DNA from: a virus
Direction: 5' to 3' (one strand)
IMG/VR virus record: IMGVR_UViG_3300032271_001949
Location: 1-30,158 of that record
DNA: 30,158 nucleotides
Both the position numbers and the translations under genes were made by a program. A model generated the notes under the pieces. That model worked only from the letters and a program-made list of their open reading frames with translations, had not been told where the DNA came from and did not search any database. Within the stretch, counting starts at the first letter, position 1, and every line of letters starts with the position of its first letter. This document shows, in pieces, positions 14,330 to 26,449 of this stretch.

Positions 14330-14545
14330 ATGGCAAAACTAGAAACCCTTGAGTCTGGACTTACCAAGCAGTTGTCTGAGCTTGCAGATCAAATCCGCGC
14401 CCTGGAGGCTTCTTTGCTCAGCGCAAAAGAAGGTTACTTGAAAGTAAGCGGTGCCCTGGAGGCAATTGCGTTTTTAAAACAACCTTCGAGTGAGCAAGAA
14501 AGTATTTCTGAAGAGGAAGCCGTTAATGTTGCGTTAGGAGAATAA
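14330..14545 (+). CDS. Small coiled-coil protein
   Basis: 71 aa. Residues about 3-52 form a clear heptad pattern (LETLESGLTKQLSELADQI and on to LKVSGALEAIAFL), and the acidic tail (EQESISEEEAVNVALGE) is probably disordered. No membrane segment or cysteines. The stop codon directly abuts the tRNA-Thr gene on the opposite strand. Function unknown; it may be a lysis regulator or assembly helper. Confidence 0.6.
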   Translation: MAKLETLESGLTKQLSELADQIRALEASLLSAKEGYLKVSGALEAIAFLKQPSSEQESISEEEAVNVALGE

Positions 14546-14617
14546 GCTGCACCTCGGAATCGAACCGAGAATCTTCCGCTTACAAGGCGGATGCAGTAGC
14601 CATTATGCTAGTGCAGC
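14546..14617 (-). tRNA. tRNA-Thr (anticodon TGT)
   Basis: 72 nt on the minus strand. The 7-bp acceptor stem GCTGCAC/GTGCAGC is perfect. The anticodon arm is TCCGC-CTTGTAA-GCGGA, giving anticodon TGT (codon ACA). The T arm is CTCGG-TTCGATT-CCGAG. No CCA is encoded. It lies immediately next to the stop of the plus-strand gene ending at 14545. Phage tRNAs usually supply codons the phage uses more than the host. Confidence 0.93.
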
Positions 14618-15441: not shown

Positions 15442-15523
15442 TGCCCCCTGCCGGGGTCGAACCGGCACGCTTTTCAGCAAGAATTTTTAAGATTCTTGTG
15501 GCTACCTCTTACACCAAGGGGGC
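15442..15523 (-). tRNA. tRNA-Leu (anticodon TAA)
   Basis: 82 nt on the minus strand including the discriminator A. The acceptor stem GCCCCCT/AGGGGGC is perfect, the anticodon arm AGAAT-CTTAAAA-ATTCT gives TAA (codon TTA), a long variable arm follows, and the T arm is GCCGG-TTCGACC-CCGGC. No intron is present, although the cyanobacterial host gene of this type often carries a group I intron. CCA is not encoded. Confidence 0.92.
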
Positions 15524-17269: not shown

Positions 17270-17614
17270 ATGAGTTATTTTGAAAGTTATCAACAAACCG
17301 CCCTATTTAATTTCCCAACGTTAACCACCCCGGGAACAACTGAGGCAGTTGAAGTTTATACTATTAACTATCTTTCTACGCGAAATTATACGTTGATTGC
17401 GACTGTTGCAAATATTAACACTTCAGTCGTGGTGAGGCTTGATGGTAGCGTAGATGGTACCAATTTTGGTGCCATGATTTCAAACACAGTTACGGAAAAT
17501 GGTACGTATGCGTACAACGTCAGTGGTTTCCCAATGAAACAGATACGTGCCAACTTCTTTCATGAAACCGGTGGCACCGACGCTACTGTTACTTTCCAGG
17601 TTGCTGCCAATTAA
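17270..17614 (+). CDS. Virion-type beta protein, paralogue 2 of a tandem pair
   Basis: 114 aa. The central motif VANINTSVVVRLDGSVDGTNFGAM and the end TDATVTFQVAAN align with the preceding protein, so the pair arose by duplication. Sequence identity is low apart from these motifs, suggesting an old duplication. Its TAA shares TTAA with the stop of the convergent oxygenase gene. Confidence 0.65.
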   Translation: MSYFESYQQTALFNFPTLTTPGTTEAVEVYTINYLSTRNYTLIATVANINTSVVVRLDGSVDGTNFGAMISNTVTENGTYAYNVSGFPMKQIRANFFHETGGTDATVTFQVAAN

Positions 17615-18405
17615 ATTAACGGCCAACTGCGCCACCATTTTGTGATTACGTATTTATTCCCACTAACTGCCGGCAATGCTTCGTGCATTGTTTTAATGTT
17701 GGGTAACCCGTTTTGATAAAGATTATTCCAAATAACAGCTTTGCCTGTCGTTGGTTTGATCTTTAATTTTAGATGCTTAAAGTAAGTTTCTCCGCCTTCT
17801 TCTACATCATTAAGGTAAATTAAAAAAGTCCATGTGCGTTGACCCATCCATTCTGTGTAGACTTTATATTCTCTCGCTAAAGGGCAAAAGTAATCGGCGT
17901 GTTCTTTGTAGTACTGCCCAGGTTCGTATTTTTGTGCCTGCATAACTTCACCCAAAAACGGATTTAACCCCATAAACTCAGCAATTTTGTTATCAAGATT
18001 ATTTAAAAGAGGTGAAGAAAAATAATGCATGTCTGCGGTTTTGCTGGTACGATAACTTGTTGTCAAGCTTTTATCTGTAGGATCCGCAACAGTTGATGGC
18101 CTGAGATTTGTGTCAGTCACTTTAATCAGTTCTTGGCACTCTTCCGCAGTTAAAAAATTCTTTACATTGTACATTTGCGTGAAAGGAAACAAAAGTTTCT
18201 TTGCCTCCTTGGGGAATGGCCTGTTAGCAAATTCTCTGTAATCAATAGTTTTTGGTTTACTTTTAAAACTACAAAGTCGTAAAAGTTGTTCTATTTGTTC
18301 ATCGCTTTGATTATACGCGTTTTTAATGTACCTAATAACTTGAGTTTTACTGACTCCGCTGACAGCTGCTTTCATCATCTCGTAAGCAACGCTTTGTTGT
18401 TCCAT
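17611..18405 (-). CDS. 2-oxoglutarate/Fe(II) oxygenase, prolyl-4-hydroxylase-like
   Basis: 264 aa from ATG 18405 (a TTG 6 nt upstream is also in frame). Fe(II)-binding residues: H169-x-D171 in YKEHADYF and H241 in TMHEALP; K251, ten residues later, should bind 2-oxoglutarate, and TKWWR closes the fold. Conserved P4H features include FLTAEECQELI, YRTS, LNDVEEGGETYF and GKAVIWNN. The N-terminal 65 residues form a separate helical part (VIRYIKNAYNQSDEQIEQLL). The family hydroxylates Pro or other residues on proteins; cyanophages often carry such genes, with unknown substrates. A single minus-strand gene between plus-strand units. Confidence 0.85.
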   Translation of the reverse strand: MEQQSVAYEMMKAAVSGVSKTQVIRYIKNAYNQSDEQIEQLLRLCSFKSKPKTIDYREFANRPFPKEAKKLLFPFTQMYNVKNFLTAEECQELIKVTDTNLRPSTVADPTDKSLTTSYRTSKTADMHYFSSPLLNNLDNKIAEFMGLNPFLGEVMQAQKYEPGQYYKEHADYFCPLAREYKVYTEWMGQRTWTFLIYLNDVEEGGETYFKHLKLKIKPTTGKAVIWNNLYQNGLPNIKTMHEALPAVSGNKYVITKWWRSWPLI

Positions 18406-18424
18406 TTGCAAAGTACAGTCTGAG

Positions 18425-21449: not shown

Positions 21450-21853
21450 GTAAGAATTGGCCCCGACACAGATTTTTCTCGGTTGTAGTGGACAAGCGCC
21501 AGGTGCTCTTTGTCTTGAATAATAAAAAGTGCTTCTTTGTTGGGGTTCAATGTTTCGGCTTTAACAACCGCTTTTCGCATTACTTCTGCTGGCCCTTCTT
21601 GTTCCTTACTGCTTAAATCATCAATGGCTGCAATCAACTGGCTTACCGGTAAAAAGAACATTGAATCCTCATCTTTTTCTGCATCAGGAATATAAACCAT
21701 GGCTCCAGGGCCTTCATGTGCGTAGAAACGTTCGTAGAAATCGCACATATCTGCGCAAATACGCTCAATCGTCAACTGCGTCAAGATCTGTTCCTCTGGC
21801 GTGGGATTCGCCAGGTTGAGTTTTGACAGAAGTTTCTTGCGCTGGTTGGTCAT
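21446..21853 (-). CDS. Hypothetical protein in the minus cluster
   Basis: 135 aa, ATG 21853. N-terminal Lys-rich helix (NQRKKLLSKLNLANPTPEEQ), a mid part with Cys and aromatics (CADMCDFYERFYAHEGPG) and a C-terminal half with beta strands (EALFIIQDKEHLALVHYN). Not recognised. The first 89 nt lie inside the end of the upstream gene in another frame, and the last 4 nt overlap the methyltransferase-like gene. Expression is supported by this coupling. Confidence 0.65.
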   Translation of the reverse strand: MTNQRKKLLSKLNLANPTPEEQILTQLTIERICADMCDFYERFYAHEGPGAMVYIPDAEKDEDSMFFLPVSQLIAAIDDLSSKEQEGPAEVMRKAVVKAETLNPNKEALFIIQDKEHLALVHYNREKSVSGPILT

Positions 21854-22418
21854 TTTTTATGTACTCAGCAAGTCCTGAGCGTTGAAGGGTTTGACGGATC
21901 TTGGGCAGTGGTTCGTAAATGACCACTGCTTTGCCCATGTTCCCTATTTTCTTAACCAGTTTACCGTTTTCATCTTTAACTTTGGCCAGTTCGCCTTGCC
22001 GTATAAGGTATTCGGCCACGCAACGATACCGCCGTTTTGTGACGAGATCGATGTCAGGAAACTTTTCGCAAATGGTGGCAGGCTTCATATCGCTAAACGT
22101 AATCCTAATTTGATCCGCTAGGGAGAACCCAAGGATTAGGTCATTTGTACTAGTCTCGTACGTTTTTAACAGCTCAAGATAGCGGCGCAAGTCTGGCGTT
22201 TTAAAACTGCCAGAGGGTGGGATAAACATGCTCACTTGCTCAGCAAGGGAGGGCCGCATAAGATTTTCGTAATTATCGACAGTGACAGTATCAATATCAA
22301 GACCAGTGAACCTGTAGCTGAGATACTTGGTGGGTTTGCGGGATGCTGCAATATCTACCCCACTTATGAGTGGTTCTACCCCGTCTAGGGGTTCTTCTTC
22401 CCACAAGTCCAAGTCCAC
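21765..22418 (-). CDS. Hypothetical protein in the minus cluster
   Basis: 217 aa, GTG 22418. Acidic N-terminus (LDLWEEEPLDGVEP), then a mixed region (YLSYRFTGLDIDTVTVDNYENLM), helical segments and a winged-helix-like tail (CEKFPDIDLVTKRRYRCVAEYLIRQG..AKVKDENGKLVKKIGN). The last part could bind DNA, since a short HTH followed by a basic beta hairpin is a common layout, but this is only a reading of the pattern. The C-terminal 30 residues overlap the start of the next gene. Confidence 0.65.
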   Translation of the reverse strand: MDLDLWEEEPLDGVEPLISGVDIAASRKPTKYLSYRFTGLDIDTVTVDNYENLMRPSLAEQVSMFIPPSGSFKTPDLRRYLELLKTYETSTNDLILGFSLADQIRITFSDMKPATICEKFPDIDLVTKRRYRCVAEYLIRQGELAKVKDENGKLVKKIGNMGKAVVIYEPLPKIRQTLQRSGLAEYIKNDQPAQETSVKTQPGESHARGTDLDAVDD

Positions 22419-24825: not shown

Positions 24826-25396
24826 GATCAAAAATGTTCCCGTAACTCAGGTTTACGACGGAAATTTTGGTAGGGACTGGAACCGATTCTAGCTCTCGAA
24901 GCCTCAAGTGGAGTGGGTTGCAGCACAACATGTCGCAACCTGGTTGGTGGAAGACGCGCATCCGCCCCGTGTAACCCCTTGAAGTCCAAAAGGCAACACG
25001 CGCGGCTGATTGTATCCGCCCGCTGTGCGCTGGGCTGGGCATGTACGCGGCTGTTTCTGTGTTGTTTTTCTTCGTGGCGCCAATCCAGTGCCAGCAATCA
25101 TTCTTTTTCCTGATCTCAACTTTCTCCCAAAATTTCTTAACTTGCCAGTAAACATCAAAGTTAAAGTTTTTTACGTCAATAGCGCACCTACCTTTTTGGA
25201 TTTCTTTCATGCAATCAAGGCATTCGTGCATTAATCCAAATTTTCCTTTGTGGCCGGGCTGATCTTTCTTGTGCCACAAACAGAGTGTGTCTTCAGATTT
25301 GCTTAAGATTTTGTTCACTTGTTCAGCTTCTTTGGGAAATTTATTAAGAACTGTTTCACAGTTTTTGGCAAGGATCTGAAAAGCGCTGTCAGTCAT
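24803..25396 (-). CDS. HNH endonuclease, C-terminal HxxxC...CNPxHL type
   Basis: 197 aa from ATG 25396; a longer frame to 25663 overlaps the upstream HNH gene and has shadow-like composition. The first 70 residues have Cys and His pairs (CLWHKK, MHECLDCMKE, C71) that may hold a zinc. The second half is the plant/phage HNH pattern: NDCWHWIGA (C101), S.GRIQSAARVAFW, then FHQPGCDMLCCNPLHL (H150, C154, C158, N160, H163). Overlaps the upstream HNH gene by 8 nt, so the two form a pair of similar nucleases. Confidence 0.75.
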   Translation of the reverse strand: MTDSAFQILAKNCETVLNKFPKEAEQVNKILSKSEDTLCLWHKKDQPGHKGKFGLMHECLDCMKEIQKGRCAIDVKNFNFDVYWQVKKFWEKVEIRKKNDCWHWIGATKKNNTETAAYMPSPAHSGRIQSAARVAFWTSRGYTGRMRVFHQPGCDMLCCNPLHLRLRELESVPVPTKISVVNLSYGNIFDHAKSNNA

Positions 25397-25910
25397 AAGC
25401 CTCGTGGATGCAGATCCGCCGGACAATATGGTAAGGGATTTTGTATTGACGCGCAAGGGCAGCGTAGGTTTTGTTTTCCAAGAAGCCAGCCCGCAACTCC
25501 TTGACAATGGCTGGTGTGACGAGGCTCCCTTTGCGCTGGCCGCGTTCGAAGCACACGTCTTGTTTTGTCCCGAAGTAATAGTGGTTTGGGTTGAGGCAGT
25601 GCGCTGAGCTGCATTGATGCCGTCTAACCACCATCGGCTGAGACGCATCTTGGTACTGATCAACTATGGCCATCACCAGGATCCTGGCGTCCCGTCCTTT
25701 GTATAGGGGCCTTGAGCTGTGACTGGTGGTGAACCCTTGCAGCTTGCTGTGGTTACTGGTTTTGAGGCACCAGCAGGATTGTGTTCCCAAATGGGACTCA
25801 AATCGCGTCAAAACACTAACGAAGAACAAGAGATCTTCTTCGGTTAGGTAGTTTTCTTTGAAGAATTCTAGAAGTTGCACAGCAGGGGAAGGTAGGGGGA
25901 GTTGACGCAC
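25389..25910 (-). CDS. HNH endonuclease with C-terminal helix-turn-helix
   Basis: 173 aa, GTG start. CWC at 46-48, a basic stretch (YKGRDARILVMAIVDQYQ) and the core RRHQCSSAHCLNPNHYYFGT (H98, C100, C105, N107, H110) match the HNH form of phage free-standing nucleases. The C-terminus (VTPAIVKELRAGFLENKTYAALARQYKIPYHIVRRI) is a NUMOD-like HTH that should contact DNA. First gene of the minus-strand unit ending at 23376 or earlier. The large hairpin lies just upstream of its start. Confidence 0.8.
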   Translation of the reverse strand: MRQLPLPSPAVQLLEFFKENYLTEEDLLFFVSVLTRFESHLGTQSCWCLKTSNHSKLQGFTTSHSSRPLYKGRDARILVMAIVDQYQDASQPMVVRRHQCSSAHCLNPNHYYFGTKQDVCFERGQRKGSLVTPAIVKELRAGFLENKTYAALARQYKIPYHIVRRICIHEAYD

Positions 25911-25963
25911 CGATTAAAACTAGGGCAAAAGCGCTGCGGTGTCAAGGGTCTCGGGGTAGGGGG

Positions 25964-26148
25964 TTTTAACGTACGAAGTACGTCATTATTTGCCCTTTTA
26001 CTCCTTTAGAAGTAAATGGTGGTTCTAACTTGTAAAGAACATTGGTACGTAACAAAAGTTGCATACGGATGTTATTTACAAGTTAGAACCACAACTCTCT
26101 TCCCTAAGAGTAAACCCACCTAAAAATGGCATACTTTGTACGTTAAAA
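25964..26148 (+). repeat. 185-nt coaxial imperfect inverted repeat; candidate hairpin RNA or MITE-like element
   Basis: The core arms 26019-26053 and 26058-26092 pair at 32 of 35 positions, with two G-U pairs and an AAAA loop; the outer 18 bp are perfect. The end arms 25964-25980 and 26132-26148 pair over 17 positions with one G-U pair. Between them TTTACTC (25997-26003) pairs with GAGTAAA (26108-26114). All blocks share the same centre near 26056. The G-U pairs favour a plus-strand RNA. Confidence 0.8.
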
Positions 26149-26196
26149 AAATCCCAGTCATACCAAGGGGTTTGCGGTAGTACATCCTTACCCCCT

Positions 26197-26218
26197 AACG
26201 GTAACACAAACCGTTTTT
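26197..26218 (+). terminator. Possible rho-independent terminator (weak)
   Basis: AACGGT-(7 nt)-ACCGTT followed by TTT. It lies just 3' of the large hairpin and could end a plus-strand transcript that contains it. The stem is only 6 bp with few GC pairs. Confidence 0.3.
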
Positions 26219-26245
26219 GCTACTTTTTCAACGCAACAAGCAACA

Positions 26246-26449
26246 TCAACCCTCTACTGTAGATTTAGGGCAATAATGCTCCTCATATTGTTGTGCATAA
26301 ACAGCAGCACAATGGTACGGCTCAACATAACGACACATAGAACCCGTGGCATTACAAACCCTATGCACTTGATTACCATGCCCATCCTCCCCAAGTTCAA
26401 TTGTTGTTCCATTGGGAAACGTCTGAATAACGTCCATAGCCTTCATCAT
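26246..26449 (-). CDS. Small Cys/His-rich hypothetical protein
   Basis: 67 aa from ATG 26449; ATG 26446 and ATG 26436 are alternatives. A beta hairpin-like start (MDVIQTFPNGTTIELGEDGHG) leads to a Cys/His-rich part (VHRVCNATGSMCRYVEPYHCAAVYAQQYEEHYCP) with four cysteines and several histidines, a possible metal site. No family recognised. Its start faces the divergent GTG of the gene at 26490 over 40 nt, which must hold both promoters. Confidence 0.5.
   Translation of the reverse strand: MMKAMDVIQTFPNGTTIELGEDGHGNQVHRVCNATGSMCRYVEPYHCAAVYAQQYEEHYCPKSTVEG

Follow-up and report, generated by a model that had tools for sequence, protein, structure and literature searches.

Gene-free DNA in a virus fragment of 30,158 bases (the whole stretch analysed, hereafter the window) holds a large palindrome directly upstream of two HNH-like genes, A and B, which raises the question of what such a structure does and whether it works as RNA or as DNA. 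The original prediction had named a noncoding RNA, a MITE-like insert and a strong transcription block ahead of the HNH unit as candidate explanations.

The K217 gene of the window (21765-22418, minus strand) matches 72 viral loci and, as the one relative with a name, Synechococcus phage S-EIV1, and a search of bacterial genomes returned no K217 relatives. These matches identify the window as 30 kb from the genome of an S-EIV1-like cyanophage, whose hosts are probably freshwater cyanobacteria. A search for relatives of gene F returned two loci only, family libraries gave nothing beyond weak matches for E67, F, A, and K217, and the phage genomes searched gave no match to the DnaB_C family. An 84,149-base contig of the same lineage (G012, comprising L092-L096), in which D280 is split across both contig ends, is apparently a complete genome, circularly permuted and about 84 kb long; within it, L094 (44401-45650) contains two more pronounced fold outliers, at z −4.1 and z −4.8. 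Elsewhere, the window carries a 2OG-Fe(II) oxygenase gene (17611-18411, minus strand; PF13640, E 1e-15) and the minus-strand genes of tRNA-Leu(TAA) (15442-15523) and tRNA-Thr(TGT) (14545-14617), a pair that recurs in several relatives.

Architecture of the palindrome, its short sites and the adjoining promoter

Folding, an inverted-repeat search and a strand-symmetric score delimit the following parts.

25964..26148, no strand: whole nested palindrome, centred on 26055.5
26019..26092, no strand: inner 35-bp near-perfect stem (74 nt), AAAA loop at 26054-26057; kept as a stem in relatives
25964..25990, no strand: left outer arm, a small palindrome in itself (TTAACGTAC-GAA-GTACGTCA)
26122..26148, no strand: right outer arm (TGGCATAC-TTT-GTACGTTAA)

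The interval 25950-26240 folds at −109.2 kcal/mol, compared with −62.5 ± 4.6 kcal/mol for 200 dinucleotide shuffles, none of which was as good (z −10.2). Without any energy model, the inverted-repeat search recovered 25997-26053/26058-26114 (57 nt, 77%) and 25964-25990/26122-26148 (27 nt, 85%), two repeats that share one centre. The strand-symmetric palindrome score was 132 for this element and at most 85 for shuffles. A window-wide fold scan ranked the palindrome as the top outlier of the 30 kb (z −5.6, the runner-up reaching −3.4), in agreement with its earlier description as the clearest unexplained structure in the window. The nested structure and the inner 74-nt stem with its AAAA loop are thus confirmed, and more strongly than first claimed. 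Further out, an outermost inverted repeat with GGTAGGGG on the left (25890-25900) and CCCCCTA on the right (26190-26200) brackets the entire noncoding gap and is conserved across 11 aligned relatives. Two known classes of palindromic sites do not match this architecture: protelomerase telomere sites are perfectly palindromic at their centre, where this element has the AAAA loop and nearby mismatches, and the integron attC core boxes RYYYAAC/GTTRRRY are each missed by one letter (TTCTAAC/GTTAGAA in the stem).

The arms also contain short repeated sites, and a conserved leftward promoter lies beside them.

25967..25974, minus strand: GTAYGYNA copy 1, GTACGTTA
25978..25985, plus strand: GTAYGYNA copy 2, GTACGTCA
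26045..26052, plus strand: GTAYGYNA copy 3, GTACGTAA
26059..26066, minus strand: GTAYGYNA copy 4, GTATGCAA
26127..26134, minus strand: GTAYGYNA copy 5, GTATGCCA
26138..26145, plus strand: GTAYGYNA copy 6, GTACGTTA
26004..26012, plus strand: CTTTAGAAG, the window form of a short TTCTTATAGAAG-like motif
25940..25945, minus strand: −35 box TTGACA of the conserved leftward promoter
25917..25922, minus strand: −10 box TAGTTT, 17 nt from the −35 box

Six of the 11 GTAYGYNA copies of the window fall in the palindrome arms, as inverted copies in alternating orientation. Related clades have GTAC-containing variants at matching places, as read from the alignment, and GGATATGTAAGAT has three copies in the 79 kb of S-EIV1, one in the B leader and the other two in the inner arms, one per arm. 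Most clades carry an TTCTTATAGAAG-like motif left of the inner stem, and several have CAAA[TC]CC[AG]TTGCG in the spacer of the promoter, to the right of the palindrome, or at both places. The promoter pattern TTGAC[AG]-N17-TAnnnT directed toward gene A occurs in 22 of 27 gaps, with 0.4% expected per gap, and is absent in L024, L050, L055, and L056. The predicted A promoter of the window spans 25945-25917, and 18 bp separate its −35 box from the start of the palindrome upstream. Most relatives have a poor −10 box (TACCCT, TACCGT), which would fit a promoter needing help.

Conservation in relatives and linkage to gene B

The block order F / E67 / gap / A / B / C / D280 / I86 / J122 / K217 / Dam is kept in about 25 viral contigs, some of them redundant. 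Nearly all of these carry a large nested hairpin in the gap, which measures 300-480 nt and lies directly 5′ of A and B; stems of distant clades lack recognisable sequence identity, and the palindrome is nonetheless present. L005, the closest relative, is about 90% identical to the window over the noncoding stretch and about 80% over coding DNA, and it differs by compensatory changes in the outer arms. In an 11-sequence alignment, 28 of 60 consensus pairs show double changes from one Watson-Crick pair to another, in 72 cells; controls with slid partners give 8-11 such pairs and 12-15 cells. The original prediction, which was to fall if pairing was not conserved in relatives, therefore survives on this point. 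The symmetric palindrome score is weak in L050, L055, L102, and L105. One further candidate, L004, found through an exact stem 18-mer, was rejected as a fortuitous match within a coding gene.

The genes flanking the gap are as follows.

25389..25880, minus strand: gene A, HNH-like domain and C-terminal HTH; likely start GTG at 25880 by alignment with L005
24803..25402, minus strand: gene B, CxxC-type zinc ligands and a degenerate HNH part; orthologue in S-EIV1
26246..26449, minus strand: gene E67, a conserved small protein across the gap from A

The B orthologue of S-EIV1 (7.0-7.7 kb; 26% identity) shares the zinc-type ligands that precede the HNH part and lies about 9 kb from the K217 homologue on the circle. 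A large nested palindrome is located directly 5′ of it, although the neighbouring genes differ from those of the window. The same arrangement recurs in L100, L101, and L107 (z about −7), and a shorter palindrome precedes B in L102 and L105/106. Its presence upstream of B in S-EIV1 and in these first three contigs despite the different surroundings indicates that the palindrome goes with the B gene rather than with the neighbourhood. L103 and L104 have no palindrome upstream of B, where a further HNH-looking ORF is found instead; the one in L103 (2639-2998, 119 aa) may represent replacement of the palindrome by a homing endonuclease. Another fold outlier of S-EIV1, at about 60.7 kb, lies in a gap between convergent genes and was rejected as an element.

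Family profile searches matched B to PHROG HNH families and no profile to A, which resembles annotated phage HNH homing endonucleases over its C-terminal half (35% over 88 aa). Orthologues of both genes keep C..CxNPxH, and those of B also CxxC, while the catalytic first histidine that is conserved in HNH endonucleases is replaced in many (H/S/A/Y in A, H/T/N/S in B). The structural model of A (pLDDT 93.7) places its C-terminal HTH nearest to those of resolvases, IstA, and KorA, with fold matches at E above 0.5. The model of B is poor (pLDDT 67.9), and its few fold neighbours, mostly I-PpoI, I-HmuI, and NFI DNA-binding domains, are all weak (E above 1). As judged from their sequences, A and B appear to be HNH-family proteins that have lost catalysis and retained zinc-type residues, with an HTH in A. 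They are apparently fused in one open frame of 382-426 aa in L043, L046, L050, and L051, which suggests that the two proteins act together.

Mismatches in the stems and alternative explanations

Selection on an RNA helix is expected to favour G-U pairs on the transcribed strand, and G-U pairs had initially been taken to point to a plus-strand transcript. The mismatches do not bear this out. Strand-symmetric arm alignment of 22 elements, which weighs all mismatches alike, yielded 1505 Watson-Crick, 106 G-T, 106 A-C, and 356 other pairs, and pairwise comparisons between relatives yielded 30 new mismatches to G-T and 35 to A-C. RNA controls gave a G-T:A-C ratio of 11:1 overall, made up of 6 to 1 for 6S RNA, scored in the same manner as the elements, and 5 to 0 for the acceptor stems of phage tRNAs, obtained by a simpler count. 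The inner stems alone, read on the plus strand, have 21 G-T and 43 A-C mismatches, a count for which the boundaries of the window, L008, and L023 were set at the wrong motif, so that the strand call rests on the 22-element count. The RNAalifold strand comparison, which favours whichever strand is folded, was not used for this call. Equal G-T and A-C mismatches leave the plus-strand RNA reading unsupported and indicate that pairing is kept at the DNA level. Since most relatives also keep the palindrome despite near-complete change of its letters, it is probably a control site in DNA rather than RNA. The equal counts are a reminder that covariation alone is no proof of RNA.

That the palindrome forms a long hairpin in a structured noncoding RNA or a leader RNA is therefore rather doubtful; the most plausible strand for such an RNA would be the minus strand, which also encodes E67, A, and B. 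It would account for the strong folding energy, the covariation and the greater share of G-U that the inner stems have on the minus strand, but not for equal mismatch classes over all stems or for a conserved promoter directed away from the palindrome; Rfam returned no family at threshold for the element, and most of its sub-threshold matches are to generic hairpins of microRNAs. Even in the absence of selection, template switching between the arms makes them uniform and produces compensatory changes (PMC8794818, PMC8604942), and part of the covariation could have arisen in this way (PMC8794818). This process would likewise yield no G-U bias, but a palindrome upheld mainly by mutation, with little function of its own, seems improbable when its position is fixed and linked to B across very diverged phages and the flanking noncoding DNA is more conserved than coding DNA in L005.

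The main rival to a control site of the A/B operon, which we regard as unlikely, is a replication or recombination start, where an initiator, perhaps A/B, would bind the repeats, the palindrome would be extruded or nicked, and synthesis or recombination would begin. Iteron-like inverted copies and a palindrome beside a gene for a predicted DNA-binding protein do resemble iteron origins, of which repeated sites and such an adjoining gene are characteristic; there is one element per record where searched, and it has no strand bias. Against such a start, GC skew, of little use here as an origin marker, has no turning point at the element in S-EIV1 or in the long contigs, DNA polymerase A is encoded some 13 to 23 kb from it, and the HNH catalytic histidine is not conserved in A and B. 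The idea of a strong transcription block fares worse, and we hold a terminator or insulator between E67 and A to be very improbable. The palindrome does lie between two leftward genes, and a T-run hairpin had been described at 26197 (AACGG..CCGTTTTT), but no conserved T-run follows the stems on either strand, the conserved promoter starts left of the palindrome, and the stem of that hairpin is not conserved in the closest relatives. The corresponding segment of the window (26197-26225, AACGGTAACACAAACCGTTTTT) is terminator-like on the plus strand. As for a MITE-like or other mobile insert, the nested inverted repeats are what such an insert would show, but the idea is hardly tenable: the palindrome is found at the orthologous position in relatives with the block, its divergence is in step with that of the genome, no second copy was found within the 30,158-base record, and its sequence has no match in GenBank phages.

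A candidate control element of the A/B operon and its closest known counterparts

The best explanation, to which we assign a probability of roughly 45%, is that the palindrome is a multi-site double-stranded DNA control element of the A/B operon, with A and B as its predicted ligands. Inverted copies of short putative binding sites are set around one centre upstream of the A/B promoter, and the arms may, in addition, be able to form an extruded cruciform. The products of the operon itself, A and B, are the likely ligands and would bind through their zinc-type and HTH DNA-binding parts and thereby set operon expression, probably by autoregulation. A plain operator, however, has no need of 35-bp stems, and the contigs that lack the element (L103/L104), the four weakly scoring elements, the four gaps without the promoter pattern and the fold matches of A and B, all with E above 0.5, also speak against the A/B-operon reading. 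A more far-reaching version seems improbable, namely a phage switch in which a cruciform-forming palindrome and a domesticated pair of dead homing endonucleases, recognising both shape and sites, would start replication or a genome-wide expression programme in S-EIV1-like cyanophages. If A and B do bind the palindrome, they would be a viral example of homing endonucleases that have become regulators. The palindromic shape outlives its sequence throughout this phage lineage, which is widespread and little studied, and is tied to worn-down HNH genes.

The closest counterpart is S-EIV1 itself (KJ410740), where the large nested palindrome directly 5′ of the B orthologue occupies an unannotated noncoding stretch at about 7.7-8.0 kb. 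It has no recognisable identity to that of the window, the neighbour genes are different, and the search made found no A; as a cultured isolate carrying the module, S-EIV1 makes the control-element reading testable. Free-standing phage HNH homing endonucleases (e.g., those of Acinetobacter podophages) are the proteins matched by the C-terminal half of A, but A and B differ from them in keeping a syntenic position throughout the lineage and in the variability of their catalytic histidine. A precedent for a degraded homing endonuclease serving as a DNA-binding domain is Smad MH1, a His-Me/HNH-type scaffold that has lost catalysis (Grishin 2001, as cited in PMC4999995). To this domain and, by fold, NFI, the likeness consists of I-PpoI and NFI being top fold neighbours of B; both are eukaryotic, their fold similarity to B is weak, and homology is only putative. 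Finally, the 77-bp inverted repeat at the 5′ end of the Porphyromonas gingivalis capsule locus is likewise a large repeat upstream of an operon, and it has been investigated, as a structure in DNA or in RNA, for a DNA-binding protein that is co-transcribed (PMC3969353). That system differs in its HU-like protein, its bacterial capsule operon and its single repeat without nested arms (PMC3969353).
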